Source of the DNA: a virus
Length of the DNA stretch: 30,300 nt
Virus record (IMG/VR): IMGVR_UViG_3300028800_000253
Location: 1-30,300 of that record
Reading direction: 5' to 3' (one strand)
Shown here: positions 2,451 to 26,947 of the stretch, piece after piece
Numbering within the stretch: position 1 is the first letter of the stretch
Layout of the letters: every line of letters begins with the position of its first letter
Notes under the pieces: generated by a model
Seen by the model: the letters and a program-made list of their open reading frames with translations, nothing else
The model's database searches: none
Told to the model about the DNA's origin: nothing
Made by a program: the position numbers and the translations under genes

Positions 2451-3077
2451 TCAAAAATTTAATATTTCTGGAAGTGATCGGGTTGTATTTTCTTGCCCAA
2501 ATGTTGTTTGACCAAGTGCTTTATCTGCTGCTGTACCAGCACCTTTGTTAATCAAAGATAATATTGAAGGCAAAGATTTGAGTGCTGATTGACCAAATAG
2601 ATTCCACATATTGGTGTCTTGCTCTTCAGGTTCTTGCATATAATAATTGTCATGTGACTGAATACCTAAAAGTCGACTTAATAAACTCATCAGAGAATTT
2701 AGTGAATTCGATTGGATATCATGACGCTTTCCTGCTAACTCTTCAGCAAGATTACCCGCAGCTCCAGCCGCAGCATTCTCAAATGCAGAAGAATCCCTAG
2801 CTCCTAAGCCAGAAAATCGACTCGCTAATTGCCCAATATTTTGGTTAAAAGATCTTTGAGCTTGCGCCTCATAAGGCTGAAAACCTTCATCACTTCCCCC
2901 AGCTAATCTTGATAGATAATCTAATCCTTGATTAATCCCCTGTTGACCGTTACCCAGCCCTCCTAAAGTGCTATTCAAAAGATTCATTTGCTTAGGATTA
3001 AGATTCGGGACACTTACTCCTTTATAACCTGAAACTTTTGGTAAATTTGGCGCATTGCCAGTTGGTCCGTAATTCAT
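2451..3077 (-). CDS. small Gly/Ser-rich virion protein, unknown function
   Basis: 208 residues, preceded by GAGG a few bases before ATG, and six bases upstream of the next gene. The N-terminus is Pro/Gly-rich (NAPNLPKVSGYKGV), followed by a Gly/Gln-rich linker. A helical central segment with an Ala/Gly-rich run (about 95-115) and a Leu/Ser-rich helix (LNSLMSLLSRLLG) follow. Its place between tail-region genes and the large helical proteins suggests a minor virion or ejection component. The family is not recognised. Confidence 0.7.
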   Translation of the reverse strand: MNYGPTGNAPNLPKVSGYKGVSVPNLNPKQMNLLNSTLGGLGNGQQGINQGLDYLSRLAGGSDEGFQPYEAQAQRSFNQNIGQLASRFSGLGARDSSAFENAAAGAAGNLAEELAGKRHDIQSNSLNSLMSLLSRLLGIQSHDNYYMQEPEEQDTNMWNLFGQSALKSLPSILSLINKGAGTAADKALGQTTFGQENTTRSLPEILNF

Positions 3078-3084
3078 AATAACC

Positions 3085-3591
3085 TCATCCTAAAATATAT
3101 TCTAATATAACATATGCTAATGAACCTGTCCAAAAAGCAGAAGTAGTAATTACGATATCTGTTGGTGTGACATCCAATTCAATCGCATTAGCTCCTCCTC
3201 CTCCCACATCAACCCAAGGCAAAGGACGATAAAACCCTGCACTTCCCACAGGCGCATTTTGCAAAACACCATATATATGCGTAAAATATGTCGTTGAGTT
3301 AATTGCAATATTGTGAGGAAAAGATGTAGATGCTCCAGTTAAAGTAAATTCATATACTTGTCTAAGTGACTGTCTCTTTCTCAATGATGTCGTGGTATCA
3401 ATACTGAACCATTGTTCCCCTGTTACAATCTGAAATTTGTCATAAATACCATTCGTGCGAAGATTTATGGCTTGTGCAAATTCAATATCTCTCTTTGTCA
3501 AAACTGGTTGCAACATTTCAGGATCTTGAGGAAAGGTCCTAGATGTACTCACATAAGGAGATTGGATTGCTTCTGTTGTTGGGTTTACCAT
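3085..3591 (-). CDS. small beta-rich virion protein, unknown function
   Basis: 168 residues, start supported by AAGG seven bases before ATG. The sequence alternates short beta strands with Gly- and Ser-rich turns (WVDVGGGGANAIELDVTP) and ends in a hydrophobic strand. This composition fits a head-decoration or tail-attached beta-sandwich protein. It sits between the large tail protein and the helical virion proteins, 30 bases from the upstream gene, so it is probably translated from the same transcript. No named family was recognised. Confidence 0.7.
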   Translation of the reverse strand: MVNPTTEAIQSPYVSTSRTFPQDPEMLQPVLTKRDIEFAQAINLRTNGIYDKFQIVTGEQWFSIDTTTSLRKRQSLRQVYEFTLTGASTSFPHNIAINSTTYFTHIYGVLQNAPVGSAGFYRPLPWVDVGGGGANAIELDVTPTDIVITTSAFWTGSLAYVILEYILG

Positions 3592-11557: not shown

Positions 11558-13974
11558 CTAAACCGGTAATGTACAACGGACGTTACGGATCCAGGTCTCT
11601 TGCAATAATGCTTGAGTTTGTGCGAATTTCACGCCTAATGTACCATTTAAGGCTAATGGCCCTGAATACACGGGGGGACGATAAATCAATTGGCATGAAT
11701 ATCCATCTTGATCCACGTGTCCATATGATTCTCTCGCTACCATCATGTTGTTATATACGTCTGCACCATTTACCTCAGATGCAGAAAGTTGCACAGCAGC
11801 TTCCGAACTCGTAAAAATACGAGCATTGAAAACAGCTCCATACTCACTGTAGATAACATCGTTCTGATTTGGATAGTTCCAACTGCTAACAAACTTATCG
11901 AGTCCATCAAAAGTAGGCTCAAGCATCGTATTCGCTAAAAGAAAATACGCGCTACGAACTGGTGCAGAACCGAAACGGTCTTCACCGAGTTTTCCAGACA
12001 AGAATTTAAATGCGTTTGCCGTATCTAGAGAGGCATTTACGCGAGATAAATCCGCTGCAGTTAGTTCTGTAGGATTGTCTCCATTCACGCCACCGCTGCA
12101 ATTATATTGTGAGACAGAACTTAGTAAAAAGTCCCTCAAAATTATATCTTCAGCTTGCATTCTGTTACTTTAATGACCTATTTCTAGGCGGAAGGTCTTG
12201 TTATTCCCTTCTCACTGATTTCATTATGTTATATTCAGTGTTCCGACTATCACATATCTTATTTCTAAGATCCTCTGGGTTTAGTCTGTCAGCCTGCACG
12301 ATTTCTCTGCTTGGCCCTTGTTACCTACTTCTAGGACTCCAAGTCAATTACCAAAGGTTTTACATGCGCCCTCGACGCATGGCCACTCCAAGCCTTTCTG
12401 TGACCCATGATAATACCTTTCTATTACTTTCAGGAGGTCATTCCCTACTGACCAAATTTCTTTGGCGGGGAAACCGCTTCGGGTTTCCCTCACGAGCTTT
12501 CTAGTAAGCTATACTCGTGTCTAGACTATCGCATACGCTTATCGCGTCCCTCTCACTTAGTCGTTCACGGTGACTGTCGTCTTCCGCCCTGTAAGCCAGC
12601 TTCTGGCCGTCCAAGTCAATCAGAGAAGGTTTAAAGATCCCATATTTGTTTAAATAAATTAATTCTTGATAACATTGCTCTCGAAAATCTAATTGATCAA
12701 ATGGAATTCCATCCTCACATCTTTTTGTGAGTGAATATCCTTCACAAAATTTCAAAAGAATTTTTGCGTTTTCTTTTTTTACTCTTAGATAAGGAATAAT
12801 TTTTTCTAGAAATAATGAACATTTTTCAATGCCAGATATATAAAAACGATATACAGCGCCCAATTTTGAACCAGCATTTTTAGCAATAAAACATTTTCCT
12901 TTTGAGAAATTTTCTTTGATAAAATTTATCGACTTAACATTAGATTGGTTAAGTTGTATAATTGAATTATATCTAAAATTTATGCATTTCCCACTTGGTT
13001 TTTGTCTAGAAACACTGAATGATCCATCTGTATCCATTAATCCTGCTAAATATGACCAAACCATAGGATCATCCGAAATGATGCATGATCTTTTGGAAAG
13101 ACTATCTTCAGAGATTAATTGTTCATCATTAAATTCTCTCATTTTTATATATGCATTCTCTCTTTGAATAAGAATTTCAGGTGAAAGTTCTTTTCTGTTA
13201 CCTATAGGAGAAAATTCGTGATTGATTAAGAAATCTAATAAGAATTTGGCTCTTTCTTTTTTGATAACCAAATATTCACAAATTTTTTTCAAAGCTAAAA
13301 TAGACGCTTCAGCACCGATTAAGGACCAATAAAATTGAGGATTTGATATTTTTCCACTTTTTTTCATTACTCCTTTTCTTATTCCTACACTTCCTCCTAA
13401 ATATTCTTTTAAGAGATGAGTTAACATTTCAGAAAGTCCATATAATTGAAGACAGGGTCGATGACGAATTGATTTTCTCGTTACACCAACACCTGAACTC
13501 TTTTTCAATATTGAAAAAGATCCATCTCCATCTAATGCACCTGCTAAATATGATAACATCAATTTTTCCTTATCCATATGACCTCCACTATTTGTCATGA
13601 GGTCATGATATACAAATTAGATAATCAAGTCTATCAAATACTCATTCAAACATATCTTCTAGGCGAGGATCCTGATCTTGCACAATGACTTGTTCATTTA
13701 ATATCACACTTGTTCCATAAAACGCCATAGCGCAATCGATAGTTTCTCTCGTTGCGACCTGAGAAGCTGGTTCAATACCAGAATTCCCTAATTGAACTAC
13801 AGGAGGGACCAATGGAACAGGACGCAGAAATCGCATCGTAGTACCACCCTGGCGAGGCATAGAATATTTCTCGGCAGGAATAATGTAGTTAAAATTGGGA
13901 GTAGGTACTGACAACAGCCCTGGAGCCAAACTCGCTAAAATAGGAGCTGGCAGATTGCTGGTTGTAGTAATCAT
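11558..13974 (-). CDS. major capsid protein, N4-gp56-like, split by two group I introns
   Basis: Predicted spliced CDS: 13974-13650 (exon 1, 325 nt), 12447-12435 (13-nt microexon), 12161-11558 (exon 3, 604 nt); total 942 nt, one frame of 313 residues. Exon 1 alone would stop after LEDMFE. Across the joins the product reads DPRLEDM-LGNDL-MQAEDIILRD. This restores the LG(x11)RD helix expected after the YG...DP region of N4-gp56-type capsid proteins. Other family features are the NPTELTAADL helix and the IYSEYGAVFNARIF strand near the C-terminus. AAAGGA precedes the ATG. It follows the scaffold gene. The DP-to-LG distance is about three residues shorter than in relatives I recall, so cDNA proof of the junctions matters. 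Confidence 0.88.
12162..12434 (-). ncRNA. group I intron 2 of the capsid gene (ORF-less, 273 nt)
   Basis: Core elements can be read on the minus strand. P1: exon TGACCT (12440-12435) pairs with guide GGGTCA (12406-12401), with the required U-G wobble at the splice site. P3: CCTTTGG (12357-12351) with CCAGAGG (12278-12272). A P5 hairpin CCTA-GAAG-TAGG is present. P7: GACTA (12286-12282) with TAGTC (12249-12245). P8: hairpin ATCTTA-GAAA-TAAGAT (12271-12256) with a GNRA-type loop. A P9-like CACTGA/TCAGTG stem follows. The last intron base is G (12162). It shares the string ATTGACTTGGA between P3 and P5 with intron 1, so the two introns are related. No ORF of note. Confidence 0.88.
12435..12447 (-). 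other. 13-nt microexon of the capsid gene
   Basis: TAGGGAATGACCT on the minus strand, flanked by the G that ends intron 1 (12448) and the 5' end of intron 2. It supplies the last two bases of a Leu codon, then Gly-Asn-Asp, then two bases of the next Leu codon. Its last six bases form the exon side of the intron 2 P1 helix. It is needed for frame: exon 1 joined directly to exon 3 would read ATG-TAA. A 10-nt version starting after TAG (12445) also keeps frame but would replace Leu-Gly by Trp. Confidence 0.75.
12448..13649 (-). ncRNA. group I intron 1 of the capsid gene (1202 nt, encodes an endonuclease)
   Basis: P1: exon GATATGT (13656-13650) pairs with guide GTATATC (13613-13607), giving a U-G wobble at the splice site. 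The catalytic core lies at the 3' end: P3 CCTTCTC (12629-12623) with GAGAGGG (12554-12548); P5 hairpin CCAG-AAG-CTGG; P7 GACTA (12562-12558) with TAGTC (12528-12524); P8 ACGC/GCGT (12547-12535). Beyond P7 come hairpins CACGAG/CTCGTG and GGGAAACC/GGTTTCCC, then CCAAA-GAAA-TTTGG. The homing endonuclease gene occupies the segment between P1/P2 and P3 and runs into the core. The last base is G at 12448. Confidence 0.88.
12501..13577 (-). CDS. LAGLIDADG homing endonuclease encoded in intron 1
   Basis: 358 residues from the ATG at 13577, chosen because GGAGG lies five bases upstream; an in-frame ATG at 13598 would add seven residues without a clear ribosome site. Two LAGLIDADG motifs, SYLAGALDGDG (about 9-19) and SYLAGLMDTDG (about 175-185), both keep the final catalytic Asp. 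A single-chain, pseudo-dimeric enzyme that cuts intron-less alleles of the capsid gene is expected. The last 43 or so codons overlap the ribozyme core (P3 to P9), so the C-terminal residues are constrained by RNA structure. The SD and ATG lie within a TGACCTC...GAGGTCA stem that could limit translation. Confidence 0.92.
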   Translation of the reverse strand: MDKEKLMLSYLAGALDGDGSFSILKKSSGVGVTRKSIRHRPCLQLYGLSEMLTHLLKEYLGGSVGIRKGVMKKSGKISNPQFYWSLIGAEASILALKKICEYLVIKKERAKFLLDFLINHEFSPIGNRKELSPEILIQRENAYIKMREFNDEQLISEDSLSKRSCIISDDPMVWSYLAGLMDTDGSFSVSRQKPSGKCINFRYNSIIQLNQSNVKSINFIKENFSKGKCFIAKNAGSKLGAVYRFYISGIEKCSLFLEKIIPYLRVKKENAKILLKFCEGYSLTKRCEDGIPFDQLDFREQCYQELIYLNKYGIFKPSLIDLDGQKLAYRAEDDSHRERLSERDAISVCDSLDTSIAY

Positions 13975-25267: not shown

Positions 25268-26947
25268 TTAAATGATCTCCCATCCATCTGAATTCGTATA
25301 TCCAGGATAAGCCATTGGATTTTGTGCCCAACGACTCTGTCTATTCATTTGTTGTTGTTCTTCTCGTGTCACTTCTTTCAAGAATCTCTTTTGTCCAAAG
25401 TGAGTGTAGATGGCATAGCGCATTGCATCACAATTCTTAACAAGAATACCATTTGCATAAAAATTTCCTGTTCGAGGAACCTCCATACAATATACATCTT
25501 CATTCGATACTTTTTTTATACTCTTTACTTTTGAATATTCCACATCGCACAAAATTTCATCATCTAAAAAAAGATTTAATAACTCAATGTATGAACGCTT
25601 CGTCCAAATCTTATGATCACCTGTTGCTTTCAGTTTCTTCCCATTTTCCAGTTCAAGTTCATATATTTCTTTATCTACACCCGTTTGTGATACAATTTTT
25701 GCTTGATAATATTGATTATCAACCTTTCCACTTCTCACATAAGGTTGTTTACCACACAAATCTTTGATTTCAAAAAATCCTTTGTCAGTTTCTATTAATG
25801 TATTACCAACAACACATGCATGATCTTTAACCTTCATTGGCTTATCTTCACCACGTTTTACAGCCTTCTCATCCCACACATATCCCTCTATCTCCTTAAT
25901 GAGATTGCTACAAGAACGACAAATAACCAAGTCACCGTTAATGAGATGCATAGATATATTGCGGATTCCATCGAGTACCTCATTGTTGGCATGTTTTACT
26001 GGTAGTCCAGCTTTACGTAACTCTGCTTGGAAACTAGCTGCTGAAGGATCTACATATAACATCTTGAGGGGATATCCACCAAACTCTCTTCTTATGTCTT
26101 GGACATATTCACTATCAACTTTTTGCCTTCCTATGACTCTTGAATCCCAATAATATTCTTTCTCCACCCAAATATGAGGCCTCTTCAATGAATTGTATCC
26201 TACCAAAACACACGCGAAAGCATTCGTTGTACCATAGTCAATCCCCAATATAAAATACTCCCCATAAGTAGGAGGCTTAGATACAACATGATGACTAGTA
26301 TCGAAAAAATCAAATACAGCCCCCTCAGCAACCACCCATTCACCATCGATAAATCTCTTGTACCAAATTCCTTTATATTCATTCTTAAGATCACTTACAA
26401 ACTTTGGATCAAGTGATGGATTGTCTTCAATCTTAAATTTGAACGTCTTGAGATCGAGATCTTCTGCTCTATCAATGTAATCTGTTTTAAGCCAATGATA
26501 TGGACTATCTGGGTTAGTTGTGCAAAATACTTTAGCTCCTTTTATACTTAAACGCGAAAGGAGCATCATGAAAAAGCTTCTAGGAATGATTGTTGCTTCA
26601 TCGACTAATGCGCCGGCAAATGTAGAGCCTCGTATTTTGCCTTCTGCACGCTCATCATTAGCCCCAACAACATAAACCTTTCTATCATTGAATTTGAATT
26701 CACCAAGGCCTCTATTATATCGAATAGCACCTTGGGTAATATTGATCATTGGTTCAATCACATTATGAAGCACAGTCCTTTCAGACTTGCCTACAATGCA
26801 ATATTCGCCTTGAGGTCCATTGTATAATTCTTTGATAAATCTTAGCAGACAGATATAAGACTTGCCAGATCGTACCGCTCCTTCAAGGATATTGATACGA
26901 GCATCGGAATCATTAAACGCTATTATCTGCTTTGGTGACGGTTTCAT
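25268..26947 (-). CDS. terL: terminase large subunit, PBSX-type, containing an intein
   Basis: 559 residues as translated, 431 after intein removal. ATPase domain: Walker A EGAVRSGKS (22-30), Walker B GALVDEAT (112-119), and the coupling motif CTTNPDSPYHWL (from 142). RuvC-like nuclease: first Asp in LGIDYGTTNA (Asp237), second in MLYVDPSA (Asp300), third region KDHA-CDAMRY, split by the intein. It packages DNA through the portal and cuts concatemers. The gene overlaps terS by 35 bp. Unlike the usual order, the portal gene is 7.4 kb away because fibre and small-gene blocks lie between them. Confidence 0.93.
   Translation of the reverse strand: MKPSPKQIIAFNDSDARINILEGAVRSGKSYICLLRFIKELYNGPQGEYCIVGKSERTVLHNVIEPMINITQGAIRYNRGLGEFKFNDRKVYVVGANDERAEGKIRGSTFAGALVDEATIIPRSFFMMLLSRLSIKGAKVFCTTNPDSPYHWLKTDYIDRAEDLDLKTFKFKIEDNPSLDPKFVSDLKNEYKGIWYKRFIDGEWVVAEGAVFDFFDTSHHVVSKPPTYGEYFILGIDYGTTNAFACVLVGYNSLKRPHIWVEKEYYWDSRVIGRQKVDSEYVQDIRREFGGYPLKMLYVDPSAASFQAELRKAGLPVKHANNEVLDGIRNISMHLINGDLVICRSCSNLIKEIEGYVWDEKAVKRGEDKPMKVKDHACVVGNTLIETDKGFFEIKDLCGKQPYVRSGKVDNQYYQAKIVSQTGVDKEIYELELENGKKLKATGDHKIWTKRSYIELLNLFLDDEILCDVEYSKVKSIKKVSNEDVYCMEVPRTGNFYANGILVKNCDAMRYAIYTHFGQKRFLKEVTREEQQQMNRQSRWAQNPMAYPGYTNSDGWEII
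25433..25816 (-). other. mini-intein in the terminase nuclease motif (128 residues)
   Basis: Residues 378-505 of TerL. Block A starts with Cys1 (CVVGNTLIETDKGFFEI). Block B is KLKATGDHKIWT with the TxxH pair. Block F/G is VYCMEVPRTGNFYANGILVK ending in Asn, followed by Cys as the +1 extein residue. Removing it joins KDHA to CDAMRYAIYTHFG, restoring the D-H-x-x-D-A-x-R-Y nuclease motif. At 128 residues there is no room for a homing endonuclease. The penultimate residue is Lys instead of the usual His, and the His normally present before the Asn-Phe of block F is a Gly; such variants can splice, but more slowly. Confidence 0.93.

Follow-up and report, generated by a model that had tools for sequence, protein, structure and literature searches.

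In orf142 of Staphylococcus phage Twort, the tandem group I introns I2 and I3 are separated by an exon of only 23 nt, and exon skipping has been documented (PMC10136302). An intron in a major capsid gene is known from mycobacteriophage LittleE, whose splicing was shown by RT-PCR and protein sequencing (PMC3706429), and several group I introns per gene are known from the Bastillevirinae (PMC11878797) and from Jug huge phages (PMC12363816). In the window analyzed here, the whole 30,300-nt stretch of viral record IMGVR_UViG_3300028800_000253, comparison with relatives makes it well established that the major capsid gene (minus strand, 11,558-13,974) is likewise split by two tandem introns, which we assign to group I.

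As in Twort orf142, tandem phage group I introns appear to flank a very short exon; unlike there, the gene is a capsid gene, the exon is in frame and 42 nt long, the two introns carry distinct guide sequences and a LAGLIDADG gene sits in the P1 loop of intron 1. In LittleE, too, a major capsid gene holds a group I-like intron that carries a LAGLIDADG-type gene, but LittleE has one intron, an HK97-like capsid gene and its endonuclease gene on the opposite strand. Two or three group I introns likewise interrupt single genes of the Bastillevirinae and Jug phages, but for the most part those for DNA polymerase, terminase and ribonucleotide reductase, and the accessible parts of those papers mention no hot spot in a capsid gene. 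Searched against phages, the intron 2 DNA had no match, and the intron 1 core hit four records, two of which concern a P22 coat gene and a gene for ribonucleotide reductase. A related core (99.8 bits) lies at 2994-3113 of the podovirus genome Caudoviricetes sp. ctn9Y15 (L240, MW202674.1), between two P22 coat protein CDS; it too splits a coat gene, but as a single intron, under another coat-protein annotation and in a record without intron annotation. Roseobacter phage CRP-118 (L241, OR420741.1) has a related core at 3007-3122, between two ribonucleotide reductase CDS.

We consider it very likely that the locus is a gene for a 316-aa N4-gp56 capsid protein, in which two independent group I introns, one after codon 103 and one after codon 117, enclose a 42-nt exon. 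Its features are as follows.

13666-13974, minus strand: exon 1, 309 nt, 103 codons, ending in ...GATCAGGATCCT; placed by protein alignment to nine uninterrupted relatives and by splice-aware alignment.
12417-13665, minus strand: intron 1, predicted group I, 1,249 nt, ending in ...AAAGTAATAGAAAG; protein and splice-aware alignment, covariance model R1.
12501-13598, minus strand: putative LAGLIDADG homing endonuclease ORF in intron 1, 365 aa (or 358 aa from the ATG at 13577); Pfam LAGLIDADG_1, 8.8e-12, and LAGLIDADG_3, 4.6e-6.
12634-12641, minus strand: internal guide sequence of intron 1, GGGATCTT; 8 bp with the exon 1 end AGGATCCT, U.G at the splice site.
12518-12633, minus strand: catalytic core of intron 1, P3-P8; R1, 90.7 bits, 9.1e-22.
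12375-12416, minus strand: exon 2, 42 nt, GTATTATCATGGGTCACAGAAAGGCTTGGAGTGGCCATGCGT, encoding VLSWVTERLGVAMR; corresponding segment in all uninterrupted relatives, exon of identical length in locus L011.
12158-12374, minus strand: intron 2, predicted group I, 217 nt, without an ORF, ending in ...AAAGTAACAGAATG; protein and splice-aware alignment, R1.
12363-12369, minus strand: internal guide sequence of intron 2, GCGCATG; 7 bp with the exon 2 end CATGCGT, U.G at the splice site.
12239-12361, minus strand: catalytic core of intron 2, P3-P8; R1, 84.6 bits, 3.3e-20.
11558-12157, minus strand: exon 3, starting CAAGCTGAAGAT (QAED) and running to the stop codon; protein and splice-aware alignment.

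The exon boundaries come from comparison with relatives. A protein query built from the join proposed in an earlier, sequence-only reading of this DNA retrieved 15 capsid loci in viral contigs, nine of them uninterrupted, and all nine have DQDP-VLSWVTERLGVAMR-QAED, or a close variant, at the intron region; the 14 codons of VLSWVTERLGVAMR encode residues that are among the most conserved of the capsid protein. Removal of both introns (13665-12417 and 12374-12158) leaves a 316-aa protein with its frame intact, zero stops and 83% identity to close relatives with a single gap position, in which the peptides DQDPVLSWVTER and AMRQAED span the two junctions. When 78 uninterrupted capsid proteins were made into a profile, splice-aware alignment to it, constrained only to a 5' exon end in T (U) and an intron end in G, gave exactly the same junctions. 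With the exons placed by protein alignment, the introns end in GAAAG and GAATG, respectively, the terminal G being an imposed constraint in the splice-aware alignment. The corrected product scores 77.0 bits against TIGR04387 (cut-off 60), a family that 24/24 aligned capsid relatives also match at E ≤ 0.1, and the earlier assignment to an N4-gp56-type capsid gene is therefore borne out. It follows from the sequence that capsid protein would be made only if both introns were spliced out.

That two group I cores lie less than 500 nt apart on the minus strand had already been proposed, and it agrees with our covariance search. Model R1 was made from 26 introns of other phages, at other insertion sites, leaving out the window and its same-site homologues, and it matches both capsid-gene cores and nothing else in the 30.3-kb window. 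We made our own core alignment of these 26 introns because the general group I model of Rfam, RF00028, gave a single match (12456-12174, the second core) at 23.3 bits, below its cut-off of 50; covariance models thus recover two cores with R1 and only the second, below cut-off, with Rfam. Helices P3 to P8, with the P3/P7 pseudoknot among them, are paired in 99.7% of the cells of this alignment, compared with 38-45% when partners are shifted by 1-3 columns, a comparison biased in favor of the structure, which was derived from those same sequences. Double changes occur at 20/28 core pairs, with counts far above both controls, and P3 and P7 pair in both window introns. Elsewhere in the window, the terminase large subunit ORF (25268-26947, minus strand) contains an apparent mini-intein of about 128 residues, running from CVVGNTLIETDKG to NGILVKN and followed by C, after which C-terminal terminase sequence resumes.

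Pairing between introns and exons agrees with these boundaries. Across 57 family introns, guide sequences adjoin the core on its upstream side in a fixed register, and P1 averages 6.8 bp, versus 2.9 bp with exon ends shuffled among introns, with at least 5 bp in 53/57. The P1 of intron 1 is compensated in L011 and L014, which carry an intron at the same codon, where GACCCT pairs with GGGGTC. P10 averages 2.95 bp in the family, versus 1.04 bp after shuffling; intron 1 forms 5 bp with the start of exon 2 and intron 2 forms 1 bp, and because P10 is almost absent there, the 3' site of intron 2 rests on alignment and on the family-wide AAAGTAACAGAATG ending. Each intron would define its 5' splice site with a guide sequence of its own, through P1 helices of 8 and 7 bp that both carry U.G; as is established for group I introns, a guanosine cofactor would attack after the splice-site U, and the freed 3'-OH would then attack after the terminal G of the intron, joining the exons. 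Since the two guides differ (GGGATCTT versus GCGCATG), each would recognize only the exon end that belongs to it, and retention of exon 2 is the expected normal outcome. Intron 2 would act as a minimal ribozyme without a gene. Splicing may depend on a protein helper or run inefficiently.

The sequence-only reading had placed the junctions differently, with exon 1 extending to 13650, a 13-nt microexon at 12447-12435 and exon 3 starting at 12161, and we give this structure almost no chance of being correct. It does yield a single open frame of 313 codons. It restores an LG(x11)RD motif, which could not separate the joins because the spacing fits both (LGNDLMQAEDIILRD and LGVAMRQAEDIILRD). P1-like hairpins are present at its proposed sites (GATATGT with GTATATC; TGACCT with GGGTCA); however, on the minus strand of the window a T followed within 60 nt by such a match, starting with U.G, occurs once per 42 nt at 6 bp or more and once per 106 nt at 7 bp or more, so that hairpins of this kind carry no weight, and both lie outside the fixed register of the family upstream of the core. 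Its protein reads DQDP-RLEDMLGNDLM-QAED at the intron region, three residues shorter than 9/9 uninterrupted relatives and mismatched in the conserved segment; neither its two 5' nor its two 3' splice sites, nor its P1 helices, are confirmed; aligned to intron-less relatives, it reaches 79.5% identity to the close ones with four gap positions, and it scores 64.6 rather than 77.0 bits against TIGR04387. The 42-nt exon at 12416-12375, a perfect match to the 14-codon segment of the relatives, is thrown away inside its intron 2. The case thus shows that, without relatives, group I splice sites cannot be placed from short P1 matches and a single restored motif.

Two other readings accept the corrected boundaries. 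Some transcripts of the paired introns may skip exon 2, which would keep the frame, remove 42 nt and give a capsid isoform 14 residues shorter; the exon length, a multiple of three, allows this, and skipping is documented for the tandem introns of Twort orf142 (PMC10136302). We nevertheless regard it as very unlikely: the two guides differ, each fitting the end of its own exon, and the 14 residues rank with the protein's most conserved, so that the shortened form would hardly serve as a capsid protein. Less probable still is a decaying or non-functional gene copy whose introns are past splicing: while the virus is uncultivated and known here from sequence alone, exact removal of the introns leaves an intact, stop-free frame with 83% identity to close relatives, and both cores and both P1 helices retain their pairing.

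Intron 1 is likely a mobile element. Its endonuclease ORF occupies the P1 loop, downstream of the 5' splice site and ahead of the guide sequence; its 3' end runs into the ribozyme core, and it has two LAGLIDADG motifs with acidic residues (LAGALDGDG and LAGLMDTDG). The enzyme is presumably active. What is known of the family and the reuse of site 102.0 (the scale is defined below) in seven supported genes point to homing of this intron. Several capsid-family introns (in L102, L113, L151 and L157) have a LAGLIDADG-like ORF antisense to the capsid gene, as in LittleE. A hairpin, ATGACCTC...GGAGGTCAT (13555-13640, minus strand), spans a Shine-Dalgarno-like GGAGGT ahead of the endonuclease ORF's second ATG, and a weak promoter-like match lies directly upstream; comparable pairing is seen by eye in L011 and not clearly in other introns. 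Taken as a whole, this region does not fold better than shuffled sequence (z -0.19), and upstream stretches of other family introns, when folded, shared no structure; we therefore claim no regulatory role for it.

Close relatives indicate gain and loss of these introns. On a site scale that starts at the second codon of the gene, the window introns (after codons 103 and 117) lie at 102.0 and 116.0. The intron after codon 103 is also present in L008, a near-identical phage, and in L011 and L014; L011 has both introns and the same 42-nt exon, and L014 has intron 1 only, with exons 2 and 3 continuous. Other relatives carry introns at 106.2, about four codons downstream of the first window site (L010), at 99.0, three codons upstream of it (L086), at 94.2 and 118.0 (two other introns, L013) and at 142.0 (L012). 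Among 23 close relatives including the near-twin (at least 67% identity over the C-terminal segment), 10 have introns and 13 do not; this set was fetched with a C-terminal query and is independent of introns at those sites. A search of phage isolates for the capsid protein gave one distant match only, at 19-23% identity, and a pattern scan of genome contigs gave 30 stretches, none a confirmed relative, and hence no host from that source. An AlphaFold model of an uninterrupted relative had a pLDDT of 38 and was left out of fold search.

Intron crowding extends across the family. A core DNA pattern found at least 120 stretches in viral contigs, of which, among the matches listed, 46 contain the capsid family; also among the matches listed, 74/120 pattern loci (L088-L207) have no match to the N4-gp56 capsid family. 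Counting as supported those introns that have both the 3'-end motif and 5 bp or more of P1, 48/129 distinct capsid genes (all fetched loci) carry introns, at a minimum of 35 distinct positions, a proportion that is not a frequency, the sample being enriched for introns through the core-pattern search. Fifteen genes have two supported introns, and some, such as L237, hold further introns that fail the strict P1 test; the splice-aware alignment misplaces some introns with an unrecognized 5' region (several fail the P1 test), and these were left uncounted. Supported short inner exons measure 27 (L100), 31 (L116), 38 (L127), 42 (L008) and 42 nt (L011). With these and the 23-nt exon of Twort, the earlier description of so short an exon as very unusual holds only in part. 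Within a single 114-nt stretch, codons 84-122, lie 12 of the 35 positions (scan P ~0.02 under uniform placement). Over 37 loci with flanks of up to 5-6 kb, 19/19 R1 matches fall inside the capsid gene; in a second locus set, L047 and L040 match outside it. These related cores (L047 507-627, L040 1-44) sit within a different gene, some 4-5 kb upstream of the one for the capsid protein. In-frame stops between the 5' splice site and the core, considered as a block to ribosomes, were not enriched (18/60 in the true frame versus 36 and 29).

Crowded group I intron hot spots are known from organellar genes such as cox1. Our findings suggest, with good probability, that the N4-gp56 capsid gene of a broad environmental phage group is a hot spot of this sort, with at least 35 positions, two or more introns in some genes, inner exons that measure 27-42 nt and a concentration in codons 84-122, and that homing endonucleases repeatedly target its most conserved codons. 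No account of this gene as an intron hot spot appears in the literature searched, which mostly excluded subscription papers, so that novelty is not proven. While the single locus is a fresh example of a known arrangement, the family-wide crowding is the part worth following.

Major capsid genes serve to find and classify uncultivated phages, and those divided into exons of 27 to 100 nt will be missed or misannotated, as in MW202674.1, whose coat gene halves are listed as separate CDS. The gene for the most abundant protein, with its crowd of independent introns, would also offer a natural series for studying how several ribozymes splice one mRNA under translation, and the same series bears on what prevents exon skipping and what draws homing elements to capsid codons.
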